Source: Clostridia bacterium
Lineage (GTDB): Bacteria; Bacillota; Clostridia; Oscillospirales; Acutalibacteraceae
NCBI GenBank assembly: GCA_017410325.1
Contig: JAFQRA010000023.1
Location: 1-64,000, forward strand
DNA length: 64,000 nt
Direction: 5' to 3'
The position numbers and the translations under genes were made by a program. Below, piece after piece: positions 12,980-54,388 of the stretch. The number at the start of each line of letters is the position of its first letter. Position 1 is the stretch's first letter. The notes beneath the pieces were generated by a model. It was not told where the DNA came from. It did no database searches and saw nothing but the letters and a program-made list of their open reading frames with translations.

Positions 12980-13026
12980 AAAAACCTGAAAAAAATGTTC
13001 GTATAAGCGGAACTTATGTGCTGCAC

Positions 13027-13165
13027 ATTCTTTTCCCTTCCGGACTGTTACCGTCGGTATCGGAATTTCACCGATTCGGGGAAAGCGCGGGTGCGCTGTC
13101 CTTCGCAGACTAAGAATACGTGATTCATCACTGCCGGTGAGGATTTTCACCTCGCCCCAAAGAAT
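13027..13165 (-). ncRNA. FMN riboswitch (RFN element)
   Basis: On the minus strand the closing stem ATTCTTT / AAAGAAT (13159-13165 with 13027-13033) encloses the RFN conserved blocks: GGGGCGAGGTGAAAATCC, ACCGGCAGTGA, AGTCTGCGA, AATCGGTGAAATTCCGAT, ACGGTAACAGTCCGGA. These are the FMN-binding core segments of the Rfam FMN family. It precedes a terminator and ribU, so FMN should switch off riboflavin uptake. Confidence 0.95.
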
Positions 13166-13390
13166 ATTCACTTTAGCCTTATTATAAGCCCGTCGGGGTG
13201 GACTGTCAACTGTTTTTTTATTTAGTTTATTTAATGTGTTTTTCTTTACAATTTTCAATTAAAATGTTATATTAATTTTTAATAAGGTATATAAGATAAA
13301 AAGTTATGGATTGGCTCGTGGGATTCTTTACTGTTTGTAATTGTTTTGAACATAATCAGATTTATTCAAAAGAAAGGCAGAGAATAATTT

Positions 13391-45314: not shown

Positions 45315-45375
45315 GCAAAGTGCAAAATGCAAAACGCAAAGTTAAGGGTCGCTACGCTCCAAATTTATAAATGGG
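45315..45375. repeat. Short low-complexity and GGGTCGCTNCGCTCC repeat
   Basis: TGCAAAGTGCAAAATGCAAAACGCAAAG (given here as a run of GCAAA units at 45315-45343) is followed by AGGGTCGCTACGCTCC. The last block recurs with one base change at 56282-56297. Both copies lie in intergenic DNA. Dispersed repeat of unknown role. Confidence 0.45.
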
Positions 45376-47170
45376 TATCCTTGTACTTTTCCGCCTGTAA
45401 ACGGAACATATAGGCGTATTTGCCGTTTTTTTCCATCAGCTCGTCGTGACTGCCGCACTCGATAATTCTGCCGTTTTCAAGCATAAGTATTCTGTCGGCG
45501 TGGCGTGTGGTGGAAAGGCGGTGGGAAATGAACACAACCGTTGAATCGGTACAGCTTTCGCTTATCGCCTTGTTCAGCTCGTATTCCGAAACGGGGTCAA
45601 GGTTAGCGCTCGGCTCGTCAAGAATAATATACGGGCTTTGCTTGTAGAACACTCTTGCAATTGCAAGCTTCTGCTGCTCACCGCCCGAAAGCATAACGCC
45701 TTCGTCGCTGAATTCACGCAGCAGCATTGTGTCTGCACCGTGGGGCAGCTCCTTTGTAAAGCCTGCAAGCTCAAGCGCCTTCATCACACGGGCGCTGTCA
45801 TAAACGGGCGAGAGTGCCACGTTTTCGCCGACGGTTGCGGCAAAAATACGGAAATCCTGAAAAACTGCGGAAAAGCGGTTGCGGTGGGAGGCAACGGTTA
45901 CGTCACGAATGTCCCGTCCGCCGATTTCGATTAAGCCGCAATCAACATCATACAGCCTGAGTAAAAGATTCGTCAGCGTGGTTTTACCCGCACCGTTGTA
46001 GCCGACAAGAGCAATCTTTTCGCAGGGCTTTATTTCAAAGGAAACGCCGTTTACGCTCTCCTTTTCGCCGCCTTCATAAGTAAAGCTGATATCCTTTACA
46101 GCTATTGTTTCGGGCTTGTTGCAGGTTACCGTGTGAGCACCGTCCTTTATCTTGCTTTCGGTTGACATAAAGCTGCGGCATTTTTCAATCATCTTCGACC
46201 GCTCGGTAAAGGTTCTCAGGCTGTAAACTGTAAGGTACAGCACACTCGCACCAATCTGCGTGGCACCGTTGAAGGTGGCAACGAAATCGCCTGCACTCAT
46301 CTTACCCGTGACAATGGTCTGGTAGCCGATATAAAGGCTGAGTATGAGCATAAAGCCGACAACCTGAACGGAAAATTCCTGCACGAAGAAAAGCCCGTCA
46401 AGCTTTCTGATAAAGCCCTTCTGTGTTTTAATCATATCGTCTGCGCTCTCGTTGAAACGCTTGTGAAGCAGGGGGTAAATACCGCTCGTGCGGATTTCGC
46501 CCGCATAGTCTGGCAGGTAAAACACCCTTGCAAAATAGTCGCTTCTGCGGTGCTTTTCGGTTACCGCTTCACGGCGCTTTGTCTGCAGATTACCCGTATA
46601 TTTGCCAAGCGGAATAAAAAGAATTACCGTACCGAGCACTATCAGAAGGCACATCGGGTCAATGGTGAGTATGATTGCCGCTATCGCAACAAAGGACAGA
46701 ATCTGCTCAACATAGCCCTTGATAATGCTGAGAATGTTTGTGAGGTTATCTGACACATTTTCTATAGACAGAATAAAATCGCTGTAATAGCCCGGGTCGT
46801 CGTACTTGGCAAGGTCAAGCTCTGCCGCTTTACGGTAGAACATCGACTGAATTATCAGATCCATTTTCTCACGCTCACGGTGAACAAAAAGCTCATAGAA
46901 AACATTTGAGAAAATTTCGCACACAACGATTACGGCAAGCATAATTATAATGCCCGTGATTATCTTTTTCGGCTCACCGCCGCTTTGCACCTCGTCAATT
47001 ATGTATTTAAGGCCTATAACGGATATGAGCCTGCCCGGCATTGCGCTGACAATCTGCTCAAAAATGCTGCCGATTACAAGCCACGGCGAAGCCTTGAACA
47101 TAAGCGAGAGCATATAGATTATATTGGAAAGTGTGCTGTGCTTCTTCCTTATTTTTGCTTTCATTTTCAT
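45365..47170 (-). CDS. ABC exporter half-transporter (second of pair)
   Basis: This 601-aa protein has a six-helix type IV transmembrane domain (about residues 1-320) and a nucleotide-binding domain: Walker A GYNGAGKTTL (near 390), signature LSGGEQQKL, Walker B YIILDEPSANLDP with catalytic Glu, and H-loop FISHRLSTT. All catalytic parts are intact. It overlaps the upstream ABC gene by 4 nt (ATGA), so the two should form a heterodimer. The substrate is unknown: drug efflux and peptide export are the options. Confidence 0.9.
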   Translation of the reverse strand: MKMKAKIRKKHSTLSNIIYMLSLMFKASPWLVIGSIFEQIVSAMPGRLISVIGLKYIIDEVQSGGEPKKIITGIIIMLAVIVVCEIFSNVFYELFVHREREKMDLIIQSMFYRKAAELDLAKYDDPGYYSDFILSIENVSDNLTNILSIIKGYVEQILSFVAIAAIILTIDPMCLLIVLGTVILFIPLGKYTGNLQTKRREAVTEKHRRSDYFARVFYLPDYAGEIRTSGIYPLLHKRFNESADDMIKTQKGFIRKLDGLFFVQEFSVQVVGFMLILSLYIGYQTIVTGKMSAGDFVATFNGATQIGASVLYLTVYSLRTFTERSKMIEKCRSFMSTESKIKDGAHTVTCNKPETIAVKDISFTYEGGEKESVNGVSFEIKPCEKIALVGYNGAGKTTLTNLLLRLYDVDCGLIEIGGRDIRDVTVASHRNRFSAVFQDFRIFAATVGENVALSPVYDSARVMKALELAGFTKELPHGADTMLLREFSDEGVMLSGGEQQKLAIARVFYKQSPYIILDEPSANLDPVSEYELNKAISESCTDSTVVFISHRLSTTRHADRILMLENGRIIECGSHDELMEKNGKYAYMFRLQAEKYKDTHL

Positions 47171-48993
47171 TCCACGCTCCCCTCCTCATCTCTGTAGCTT
47201 GAAGCCTGGAGCGTGAACATTTCGCAGTAGCCGCCCTTTGCCGCCATAAGCTGCTCGTGCGTGCCGCACTCGGTAATCGTACCGCCGTCAAAGACATAAA
47301 TTCTGTCCGAAAGCACGGCGGAAGACAGCCTGTGCGAAATATAGATAACCGTTTTTTCCTCGGTTGCTTCAATAAGGCTTTCGTACATTTTGTATTCGGC
47401 TATGGGGTCAAGCGCTGACGAGGGCTCGTCAAGAATTGCAAAATCAAAGCTCTTGGCAAACATTCTGGCGGCACAGAGCTTCTGCTGTTCACCGCCCGAA
47501 AGTCCTGTGCCCTTTTCGTCAAACTCACGGGTAAACACGGTCTGCCTGCCCTCGGGCATGGACATAATCCGCTCGTAAACGCCTGCCGCTTTCAGCGCTT
47601 TATCTACGGCGGCGTTGTCCTCCTTACCCTCGCACTCACGGCACAGCACGTTTTCGCCGACGGTAAGCGCAAAGACCTTGTAATCCTGAAAAACGGTTGC
47701 AAGCCTTGCGTGAAGGGAGGCAATATCGTACTCCCTTATATCCTTGCCGTTGTACAGGATTTCACCGCTGTCGGGGTCATAAAAGCGAAGCAGGAGCTTT
47801 ACAAAGGTTGTTTTGCCTGCACCGTTGTGGCCGACCACCGCTACGGTTTCGCCCCTGCTGATTTTAAAGCTGAGGTTTGTGAGCGAGGGAGCCTTTGCAC
47901 CGGGATAGGTGAAGCAGACGTTTCTGAATTCGAGGCTTTCAAATTCTTCCGCCTTTTTATTGCCGCCGACAACTCTTTCCTCGTACTCAAAGAACTCTTT
48001 AAGGTTGCCGAAATAAGCGGCTTCCTTTCTGACGTTGGATATGGAGTCGCTCAAATCCTTGAGCACATCCTTGAGGTTGCTGACAGCCGTAACGATAACG
48101 GAAAAATCCGACAAGGCGAGGTTTCTTTTTACAACGAAGCGGTATGCCGCATAGCCGTAGGCCGCCGCAGTGGGTACAGCCTTGCCGAAAAGACCTGAAA
48201 CCAGTTCAAGCAGCATTACCTTAACGCCGTATTTTTTGATTATTGCCCTGTTGGTTTCAACCGCCGTTTGAAACCGCTCAAGCATAACGGAAAATATGTC
48301 CGAGGTACGCATATCCTTGGAAAAATCCTTGAGGAAAACCGTACGCTTGACGTATTCCTTTGAACGCTTGTGCGGTGTCATTTCCTTGTCTTTTTTTACG
48401 TCAATTTTGCCGATTGCGATACCTGCCAGCACCACGAATATGCCGACTGAAAGTATCAGCAGCAGCCTCGGGTCGATCGAAACAATATAAATCACAAGGA
48501 AAACACCCGTAAGCGAGCTTGCAAAAACGTTTGAAAGCCGCCAGGTAAATTCCGAAAAATGCTCGCTCGTAATTATTTCGGTTGCACGCTTGTACTTATC
48601 GTAAAAATCGGGGTTTTCATAACAGGCAATATCAACTGTAACCGCCTTTTTAAATATGCGGTCGTTGAGATTTTTGTAAAAATACTTCATTCTGGTACAG
48701 ACAAAATAGTCCGTAATGCAGTCCGTTGCCTTTGCAAGCAGACCTGCACCGGCAAACATCAGCACGAGAATAACGTACTGCTTGTAGCTGCCGCCCGTTT
48801 CAATAAGCTCAAGCAAGAGTTTAAGAAAGAGTATTTCCTGAATAAAGCCCGTAAAAAACCAGTAGGCTGTCTGGGTCATAATGAATGCGGTGAGCAGTAA
48901 CGGTGCACACTGCACGCAGATTTTAACGGCATAGAGCGTATCCTTCAGAGCTCTGAAACGCTCTCCGCCTTGTTTTTTGCAATTTTGTTTCAC
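47167..48993 (-). CDS. ABC exporter half-transporter (first of pair)
   Basis: This is a 608-aa half-transporter. Its transmembrane domain covers about residues 1-345 and its nucleotide-binding domain follows (Walker A GHNGAGKTTF, signature LSGGEQQKL, Walker B FAILDEPSSALDP, H-loop ISHRLSSA). It starts at GTG 48993, with AAGGAG 7 nt before it; the longer open frame is leader sequence. Directly upstream is a terminator (49041-49073) and a 20-codon ORF, so expression probably depends on read-through. Unlike BmrC, both ATP sites of this pair look canonical. Confidence 0.9.
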   Translation of the reverse strand: MKQNCKKQGGERFRALKDTLYAVKICVQCAPLLLTAFIMTQTAYWFFTGFIQEILFLKLLLELIETGGSYKQYVILVLMFAGAGLLAKATDCITDYFVCTRMKYFYKNLNDRIFKKAVTVDIACYENPDFYDKYKRATEIITSEHFSEFTWRLSNVFASSLTGVFLVIYIVSIDPRLLLILSVGIFVVLAGIAIGKIDVKKDKEMTPHKRSKEYVKRTVFLKDFSKDMRTSDIFSVMLERFQTAVETNRAIIKKYGVKVMLLELVSGLFGKAVPTAAAYGYAAYRFVVKRNLALSDFSVIVTAVSNLKDVLKDLSDSISNVRKEAAYFGNLKEFFEYEERVVGGNKKAEEFESLEFRNVCFTYPGAKAPSLTNLSFKISRGETVAVVGHNGAGKTTFVKLLLRFYDPDSGEILYNGKDIREYDIASLHARLATVFQDYKVFALTVGENVLCRECEGKEDNAAVDKALKAAGVYERIMSMPEGRQTVFTREFDEKGTGLSGGEQQKLCAARMFAKSFDFAILDEPSSALDPIAEYKMYESLIEATEEKTVIYISHRLSSAVLSDRIYVFDGGTITECGTHEQLMAAKGGYCEMFTLQASSYRDEEGSVE

Positions 48994-49040
48994 GTTACAT
49001 CTCCTTGAATTAAGTCGGCCGTATCCGCCTGCTAAAAAAC

Positions 49041-49073
49041 AAAAAATCCCGAAAACATAAAGCCTTCGGGATT
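49041..49073 (-). terminator. Leader terminator (attenuator) before ABC pair
   Basis: AATCCCGAA (49045-49053) pairs with TTCGGGATT (49065-49073) over an 11-nt loop; minus-strand transcript then runs TTTTGTTTTTT. It lies 24 nt after the leader ORF stop and about 50 nt before the ABC start codon. CCCGAA in it can also pair with TTCGGG inside the leader ORF. Confidence 0.85.
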
Positions 49074-49097
49074 GACGCATTTACCGTGTTTTGCTTT

Positions 49098-49160
49098 TCA
49101 GCAAGCAGAAACGGACACAGCTACCCGAATTTCAGTTTTGTTGAATAAAGTTGTCATCAT
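49098..49160 (-). CDS. 20-aa leader peptide or secreted-peptide precursor
   Basis: The ORF encodes MMTTLFNKTEIRVAVSVSAC. It is too short for ordinary gene calling but has a strong ribosome site (AAAGAGGAG, 9-10 nt before the ATG) and its own consensus promoter. Its stop codon lies in a small hairpin (TTGCT/AGCAA, 49091-49104). The codons ATT-CGG-GTA (residues 11-13) are complementary to the terminator arm downstream, and TGTCCGT at 49111-49117 can pair with the ribosome-site-proximal segment at 49163-49169. This suggests ribosome-controlled attenuation of the ABC genes. A ribosomally made exported peptide ending in Cys is the alternative. Confidence 0.6.
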   Translation of the reverse strand: MMTTLFNKTEIRVAVSVSAC

Positions 49161-49191
49161 TATGTCCGTCTCCTCTTTCTTTAAAGTTTTT

Positions 49192-49216
49192 CTGCACCTT
49201 AACACGGTCGGTGCAG
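49192..49216 (-). promoter_or_regulatory. 5' hairpin of leader RNA
   Basis: CTGCACC / GGTGCAG, 7 bp with an 11-nt loop, begins within a few bases of the predicted transcript start, ahead of the leader ORF ribosome site. It may stabilise the RNA or belong to the attenuator fold. Confidence 0.55.
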
Positions 49217-49221
49217 AAATA

Positions 49222-49250
49222 AAAATAACATATTTTGCCTTAGTTGTCAA
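49222..49250 (-). promoter_or_regulatory. Promoter of leader-ABC unit
   Basis: Minus strand TTGACA (49245-49250), 17-nt spacer, TATTTT (49222-49227) with TG extension. The start point would be near 49215. Confidence 0.75.
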
Positions 49251-50421: not shown

Positions 50422-50465
50422 AACAACCCTTGGAATCTCAACGATTCCAAGGGTTTATTTCTTTT
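50422..50465 (+). terminator. Terminator after rpsI (copy 1 of duplicated terminator)
   Basis: ACCCTTGGAATC / GATTCCAAGGGT, 12-bp stem with T-rich tail. The 15 nt of its left arm and 21 nt of its right side are repeated exactly at 52087-52134. Confidence 0.9.
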
Positions 50466-54107: not shown

Positions 54108-54388
54108 ATAAATGCGATGAGCAGAAACCAGTAGGTCGGAAAGAATCTGGAGAGAGTTGCCGGTTGGTGCGAGGCAAAGAGGGCGTCCTTCACGAATTCA
54201 TTCTGTTAGCAGTGCACTGAATAAGAGTAATCTTTAGTAGGATGCAACGGGAGTTCCCGTTACAGAACTAAGGTATGTCAGTACCTGATAAGGCCGCTAC
54301 CGTGAGATGGCGGTAAACTGAGGTGGTACCACGGGATTTAAAATTCTCGTCCTCTGTATTCTTAATCGGAATGCGGAGGACGTTTTTT
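54108..54388 (+). ncRNA. T-box leader, specifier UUC (Phe)
   Basis: All T-box parts are present: stem I (GCAGAA 54121-54126 with TTCTGT 54201-54206), the AG bulge and UGCCGGUUGGUG apical region, the T-box AGGTGGTACCACGG at 54321-54334 with UGGU for a tRNA with discriminator A, and a terminator (54349-54355 / 54376-54382, T6). The codon at the specifier site, just before the closing stem arm, is TTC at 54197-54199, so uncharged tRNA-Phe should activate the operon. Confidence 0.88.

Follow-up and report, generated by a model that had tools for sequence, protein, structure and literature searches.

This work concerns a leader that lies on the minus strand, ahead of a pair of ATP-binding cassette (ABC) exporter genes, in a 64,000-nucleotide (nt) stretch of DNA from a Clostridia bacterium (assembly GCA_017410325.1, contig JAFQRA010000023.1, positions 1 to 64,000; the whole stretch is called the window below). 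Its closest described relatives, compared here through excerpts of the cited reports, are the attenuators of Bacillus subtilis vmlR and Clostridioides cplR. There too, a short leader open reading frame (ORF), an alternative structure and an intrinsic terminator precede the gene, and a stalled ribosome disrupts a 5' helix, namely the anti-antiterminator of vmlR and the hairpin sequestering the upstream ORF (uORF) of cplR (PMC9226507, PMC10201436). In vmlR, stalling on the uORF prevents the anti-antiterminator and so allows the antiterminator (PMC9226507). Arrest at the start codon has been discussed as a signal for vmlR, cplR and toiL (PMC12121999). The last of these, the Escherichia coli toiL-topAI system, also resembles our leader in that its uORF is stalled by several drug classes, some of them at the start codon, opening an RNA helix (PMC12121999). 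B. subtilis bmrB-bmrCD follows the same attenuation scheme and is induced by a subset of ribosome-targeting drugs (PMC4191407).

The leader studied here would be a variant of such ribosome-mediated attenuation, differing by an ORF whose 3' end hides its own ribosome site, by the greater length of that ORF and by the genes controlled. The vmlR and cplR ORFs encode tripeptides (MIN and MRI) and control ABC-F ribosome protectors (PMC9226507, PMC10201436), and the Shine-Dalgarno sequence of the vmlR uORF is predicted to be single-stranded (PMC9226507). Here, in contrast, the ORF has 16–40 codons, its 3' half supplies both strands of the switch and hides its own Shine-Dalgarno sequence and start, and the ORF stands ahead of genes for membrane ABC exporters or acetyltransferases. 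Compared by layout, the bmrB ORF is 53 aa long and itself contains the terminator, whereas our terminator follows a 20-codon ORF (PMC4191407). The toiL-topAI leader governs toxin-antitoxin translation and Rho-dependent termination, not an intrinsic terminator (PMC12121999), and the excerpted account of the Streptococcus pneumoniae patAB attenuator, unlike ours, includes no leader ORF (PMC4319486). A 2010 genome survey listed 205 ABC-transporter attenuation candidates, one of them before a multidrug export operon in lactobacilli; for the predicted 'ABC-leaders', its excerpts mention no self-closing leader ORF such as we see here (PMC2965389). Our literature search, with subscription journals mostly outside its scope, found no description of a sensing ORF that closes on its own start signal.

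Most probably, the leader attenuates transcription under the control of a ribosome and responds when that ribosome is arrested during initiation or directly after it. The sequences show the anatomy of the leader, its conservation, the kept frame, and helices that persist with compensating changes. The switch, with its responsive window of codons 1–4, is predicted by RNA folding; that stalling is the signal, and what sort of signal it would be, is what we infer.

Anatomy and proposed mechanism

The leader sits between the ABC pair and a divergent ribosomal-protein gene, which we take to be rplM from its protein. Read along the minus strand, the order is promoter, 5' hairpin, ribosome site, 20-codon ORF, terminator and two overlapping ABC genes. 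The elements of the leader are as follows.

49222..49250, minus strand: sigma-A type promoter, TTGACA-17-TATTTT, 10 of 12 matches, TG before the -10
49189..49219, minus strand: 5' hairpin of about 10 bp, near the predicted transcript start
49161..49173, minus strand: segment 1, from the Shine-Dalgarno sequence to the base preceding the start codon; forms the 5' side of the anti-antiterminator helix (13 bp with 49119–49107)
49098..49160, minus strand: leader ORF of 20 codons, MMTTLFNKTEIRVAVSVSAC; ribosome site, start and frame kept in relatives, indels in-frame
49107..49119, minus strand: segment 2a, ORF codons 14–18; 3' strand of the anti-antiterminator helix, pairing with segment 1
49124..49129, minus strand: segment 2b, TTCGGG, ORF strand of the predicted antiterminator; compensating changes in relatives, not above chance in the window alone
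49045..49073, minus strand: intrinsic terminator, 12 bp, -16.2 kcal/mol; its 5' arm CCCGAA (49070–49065) is the antiterminator partner

A first-pass annotation, made from the sequence of the window, had already placed the promoter, the 20-codon ORF and a strong terminator some 50 nt ahead of the ABC start; we located all three at or very near those places, with the terminator stem (49073–49045) beginning 24 nt past the ORF stop and ending 51 nt before the ABC start, a GTG at 48993 with AAGGAG. AAAGAGGAG is likewise present between the 5' hairpin and the ORF. The 5' hairpin exists but is slightly longer than the annotated 49192–49216, extending over 49219–49189. Inspection by eye showed other sequences for it in close ABC leaders, and it was not seen in leaders of the acetyltransferase type; it is probably an accessory 5' stabilizer. 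TTGACA occurs at the matching place in all four aligned relatives.

Two further pairings were considered and set aside. The hairpin annotated over the stop codon (49091–49104) is kept in the two nearest relatives, L096 and L097, and not in the other aligned leaders. By eye, the loop of the 5' hairpin (CCGTGTT) matches AACACGG downstream of the window ORF; this match was not seen in the four aligned relatives.

According to our model, RNA polymerase would start near 49215. With no stalled ribosome, segment 2a would fold back on segment 1, that is, on the ORF's own Shine-Dalgarno sequence and start, and the resulting helix would trap the neighboring segment 2b in a closed loop, so that the terminator would form and the ABC genes would stay off. 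A ribosome passing through the ORF would cover segment 2 too. One arrested at the start or in the next few codons would mask segment 1 and leave segment 2 free, and 2b could then pair with the emerging 5' arm of the terminator, giving read-through into the exporter genes. Induction would be expected from drugs or stresses stopping ribosomes during initiation or very early elongation, and the peptide sequence would hardly matter.

Occurrence of the leader

Related leaders precede homologues of ABC1 at 30 loci, 29 of them outside the window; the count includes three loci from an order-level search, the covariance-model loci L167–L169, and L170. Loci from genomes with a G label belong to the window's family. 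As the first-pass annotation had proposed, we looked for the leader across relatives, and it is conserved with the ABC gene, with the frame kept and the pairings preserved through compensating changes.

Searching 59 genomes at the DNA level turned up the leader in four same-genus relatives, whose alignment retains the promoter, the ribosome site, the ORF and the terminator. Of 250 family genomes searched at the protein level, 23 had ABC1 homologues. The regions upstream of these revealed the leader in one more member of the genus (L037), in two genomes from a different genus whose ABC1 is about 60% identical (L038 and L041) and, in more divergent form, at L048, L050, L052, L055 and L059; other ABC1 homologues lacked it. 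When the exact leader pattern was run against 84,980 species genomes, it matched 15 stretches, all just upstream of an ABC1 homologue (ten of them new, five already known from genomes with a G label). All 15 lie in metagenome-assembled genomes titled Oscillospiraceae or Clostridia, and the eight titles that name a source point to ruminant hindgut (sheep, goat, yak, roe deer). A pattern scan of 98 genomes yielded four matches, against one for the reversed control pattern. The loose two-mismatch pattern matched in 111 of 398 genomes, and the leader-like matches were examined. In a covariance-model scan of 398 family genomes, all ten hits of at least 48.9 bits were upstream of ABC1 homologues (seven already in the model, three new). 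The order-level ABC1 search (394 genomes) added its three loci and no more.

Family and class scans with the covariance model gave 49 loci in all, of which 38 were tested for a downstream ABC1; the 11 positives were the ten strong hits and L140, a second detection of the L059 leader. Of the weaker hits, we accepted L123, L124 (the same locus as L165), L126, L129 and the place of L170, the others being unproven. The best class-scan hit outside the window's own genome (L143, 42 bits; 391 genomes) was inspected and not accepted, and the single viral-contig pattern match (L178) was discarded because its ORF runs on as a longer protein. Neither the leader nor the one acetyltransferase locus searched matched any plasmid record.

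Of 43 ABC1 proteins placed on a tree, 23 have the leader; its label takes 7 changes there (the starred branches require no fewer than 6), compared with 14.5 when shuffled. We judged L047 and L051 degenerate and did not count them as leaders. At L047 (1270–1500), a leader of an ABC1 homologue, a U run follows the helix joining ribosome site and ORF end, so that the start helix may double as terminator. Upstream of the ABC gene of L051 there are a promoter and a terminator and no ORF; its tree neighbor L050 has the ORF, and loss of the ORF in L051 is possible. No leader was seen in a paralogous ABC1 clade, about 45% identical (G000 contig 32, L061; L054, L060 and L062–L064). Its sister L059 has one, as do the similar L169 and L170, which are not on the tree.

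The helix that closes the start region

The window self-helix of 13 bp (GGAGACGGACATA, 49173–49161, with TGTGTCCGTTTCT, 49119–49107) was equaled by 1 of 200 dinucleotide shuffles. The first-pass annotation had noticed a part of it, ACGGACA with TGTCCGT; this pairing is present but understated, the real helix running from the Shine-Dalgarno sequence to the base before the start codon. Of the 35 leaders tested, 34 had a self-helix that outperformed shuffles: at most 5 of 200 shuffles were as good in 23 of 24 leaders, and at most 2 in all of 11 more (the near-copies L096 and L102 were excluded from the shuffle and partition-function pairing tests). It is retained with quite different sequences, such as GGACAUAAU/AUUGUGUCC, GCGAACAUA/UGUGUUCGC, GGCAGAAAA/UUUUCUGCC and GGACAAAAUG/CGUUUUGUCC. 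In alignment A3, pairing holds in 91.8% of cells for one part of the helix and in 82.4% for the other; pair 8-87 is unpaired in 11 of 17 rows and pair 22-76 in 8.

As a background, 641 kb of DNA, enriched for leaders and with some overlapping loci, contained 105 ORFs with a ribosome site, 40 with a terminator and 65 without. A start helix of -18 or better was found for 33 of the former and 8 of the latter. Of those 40 ORFs, 38 are leaders of this study, one is L047 and one is unrelated.

Well-conserved paired segments, and two helices positioned so as to allow an H-type pseudoknot, could also be read as a translation-independent riboswitch, in which self-helix and antiterminator would form a ligand pseudoknot and the ORF would be incidental. 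We find this improbable, given that indels are in-frame, that ribosome site and start are conserved, that the loop varies freely and that the leader has no Rfam match at gathering score. (Rfam 15 matched the window three times, each time outside the leader, and a second Rfam scan gave three matches, all below gathering score.)

The leader ORF and its peptide

The ORF is kept open in relatives, with its ribosome site and start, at 19–25 codons in the close ones. Indels in it were multiples of three in all cases (alignments of 17 leaders), and the terminator lay 14–47 nt past the stop in all 26 leaders of the first set. While the N-terminal residues vary in sequence and length, the C-terminal part shows a motif, (R/P)V(I/V/A)VS(A/V)xC, that resembles peptide conservation. 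Its codons, however, form the strand pairing with GGAG-NN-GGACATAATGAT, which is the ribosome site and start of the leader itself. If the pairing strand is altered, so is the peptide: L099, L098 and L107 have I-F, K-F or N-F for A-S. The C-terminal residues would thus be conserved because their codons are dictated by pairing with the ribosome site.

These features bear on two views in which the peptide or its composition matters. A short ORF with its own ribosome site adjoins an exporter pair, and many relatives end in Cys; the ORF might therefore encode a signal or bacteriocin-like peptide exported by the pair, the terminator setting the ratio of peptide to exporter. The first-pass annotation had raised such secretion as its second option. 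We regard it as very unlikely and disfavor it, as the N-terminus is free in residues and length, the C-terminus is set by pairing, terminal Cys is not universal (L036 ends AR and has no Cys codon), neither exporter shows a Pfam match to a C39 peptidase, and the same leader type also precedes acetyltransferases. Several Val, Ser and Cys codons near the ORF end would fit attenuation of the trp or his type, responding for example to starvation for one of these amino acids. We regard this, too, as very unlikely: neither the window ORF nor its relatives repeat codons for a single amino acid in a row, RNA pairing accounts for the codons present, L036 does without Cys, and the modeled inducing position is codons 1–4, where the residues after the start differ among leaders.

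Antiterminator and terminator

Segment 2b (TTCGGG, 49129–49124) faces CCCGAA (49070–49065) in the 5' arm of the terminator. This complementarity, pointed out in the first-pass annotation, is there, but in the window alone it is at chance level, and its support comes from relatives. In relatives with a proline codon, segment 2b becomes TCCGG, often extended. Pair 72-139 of alignment A3 is C-G in 12 of the 17 rows, G-C in 3 and mismatched in 2, tracking the arginine/proline codon change; pair 71-140 is C-G in 16 and U-A in 1, and the outermost antiterminator pair fails in 11 rows. None of 500 shuffles reached the covariation score, although related rows can exceed shuffles without structure. At most 10 of 200 shuffles were as good as the antiterminator in 12 of 24 leaders and in 9 of 11 others; L129, L163 and L170 are not part of the antiterminator tests. 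With a ribosome on the start, the mean antiterminator probability over 24 leaders was 0.62, compared with 0.37 for shuffled ORFs. An AAAGC-type pairing to the terminator arm and loop serves as antiterminator in L059 and L169. Acetyltransferase leaders have antiterminators of up to 10 bp, and a G-C to A-U change preserves the 10-bp helix (L165 versus L123).

By folding and comparison, anti-antiterminator, antiterminator and terminator are mutually exclusive; this holds for the family, the window antiterminator being at chance.

Folding with a ribosome on the ORF

We folded the nascent RNA of 33 leaders (18 close ABC, 8 divergent ABC, 7 acetyltransferase type; L096, L102, L111 and L126 were excluded as near-copies) up to the terminator loop, moving along the ORF a ribosome mask assumed to cover 14 nt on either side. 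Without a ribosome, mean antiterminator pairing in the three groups was 0.12, 0.35 and 0.28, respectively. With the P site on codons 1–4, it was 0.56–0.62, 0.55–0.68 and 0.75–0.81. At codon 7 the group means were 0.10, 0.33 and 0.03, at or below the no-ribosome level. Pairing with the P site on codon 1 exceeded that without a ribosome in 32 of the 33 leaders; in the window it rose from 0.00 to 0.49.

The same modeling bears on a rival in which the peptide arrests the ribosome at its C-terminal end or at the stop codon, perhaps upon binding a small molecule, and thereby opens the antiterminator. TnaC and SpeFL are leader peptides that arrest the ribosome. MsrDL is another (PMC12121999). A ribosome placed at the stop partly frees segment 2b (means of 0.44, 0.32 and 0.61 in the three groups), the C-terminal residues look conserved (VxVSxSxC, LSVCD/K), and arrest at the stop codon is, in the model, a possible trigger. 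Such C-terminal arrest is nonetheless unlikely in our judgment. It is the codons pairing with the Shine-Dalgarno sequence and start that are conserved, the last residues vary (AC, AR, VC, CS, QC, SA, EI, CL, CD, CK, CE, CN), and so do the stop codon and the helix-to-stop distance, the helix ending 32 nt before the ORF end in L052 and L111.

Besides the partial freeing of 2b at the stop, a number of observations speak against an attenuator answering arrest at initiation. Little or no switching was modeled in L052, L110 and L123, and in the eight divergent ABC leaders pairing is already elevated with no ribosome present. The self-helix of L055 is not above chance (32 of 200 shuffles were as good). 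The antiterminator of the window and its nearest kin has just 6 bp and is no better than that of shuffled ORFs; for the window, 104 of 200 shuffles did as well by duplex energy and 19 of 60 by partition function. In 21 of 24 leaders (L052, L059 and L111 being the exceptions) and in all of 11 more, the antiterminator duplex is less stable than the terminator hairpin, so the switch must mostly be kinetic. Twenty of the 43 ABC1 proteins on the tree lack such a leader, its label needing 6–7 changes. Many rows are close relatives, not independent, and counts overstate the evidence. Finally, the two downstream acetyltransferases tested match AAC(6') models weakly (E of 1.1e-4 and 2.3e-5, with bits far under the cut-off).

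Weighing these points, we still find a stall-controlled leader for an efflux pair, the first option of the first-pass annotation, the best reading of the sequences: the leader is conserved with the ABC gene, the frame persists through indels, and two pairings persist through compensating changes.

Genes behind the leader

The two exporter genes of the window are:

47167..48993, minus strand: ABC exporter half 1, 608 aa, GTG start; Pfam ABC_tran 3.3e-31, membrane part without Pfam match
45365..47170, minus strand: ABC exporter half 2, 601 aa; ABC_tran 1.8e-28, ABC_membrane 3.7e-8; 4-nt overlap with half 1

Judged from their sequences, both proteins look like ordinary type-IV exporter halves. 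Half 1 gives generic matches to exporters of the MsbA/P-glycoprotein type, and the Walker B glutamate (LDEPS) reads as intact in both. The 25 NCBIfam models listed for each protein all fall short of their own cut-offs, and PADLOC gave weak or generic ATPase matches only. We infer that the pair exports a toxic compound.

Ten loci of the same design precede genes other than ABC exporters (L123, L126, L129, L162, L163, L164, L165, L166, L176 and L177), with peptides such as MMKRIYLVKSATVLSVCK. A GNAT acetyltransferase, a class that includes drug-modifying enzymes, lies directly downstream in L126, L129, L162, L165 and L176. The acetyltransferase match in L164 is partial and lies open in two pieces; L177 has a 60-codon ORF ahead of a protein with a GNAT domain; the sequence of L123 ends 300 nt past the leader. 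In L166 the leader is followed by a histidine phosphatase and then a GNAT protein, with a HAD-like gene also there. In L163 (1–2960, minus strand) it is followed by GrpB (Pfam), and by eye there are methyltransferase-like, HAD-like and histidine-phosphatase-like genes. The gene sets of L163 and L166 look like shuffled small-molecule-modifying genes. One of the ten is a second leader in the window's own genome (L176:2331–2550; G000 contig 1, from 15831), ahead of a gene for a two-domain GNAT acetyltransferase.

Other RNA elements of the window

Away from the leader, the window holds a T-box leader at 54108–54357 on the plus strand (Rfam, 106 bits), shortly ahead of an ORF at 54387, and an FMN riboswitch at 13024–13168 on the minus strand (Rfam, 102.9 bits). 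A 13-bp hairpin at 50425–50455, listed by the scan as terminator-like on both strands, stands just after a gene that is presumably rpsI.

Significance

Our broader proposal, put forward tentatively and with rather more doubt than the attenuator itself, is that these leaders may be portable start-arrest sensors in gut Clostridia (Oscillospiraceae). The 3' end of the ORF would lock its own ribosome site, and a single ribosome halted within codons 1–4 would open unrelated candidate resistance genes (ABC exporter pairs, GNAT acetyltransferases, GrpB, histidine phosphatase), no mid-ORF event having that effect, making the leader a peptide-independent alarm for initiation inhibitors. The model predicts that drugs halting initiation would induce, and that drugs halting ribosomes mid-ORF would not. 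If the model is right, uncultured gut Clostridia would possess an inducible exporter switch, and the leader would be a tag for unknown drug-response genes, because it also marks acetyltransferase genes, one of them in the window's own genome.
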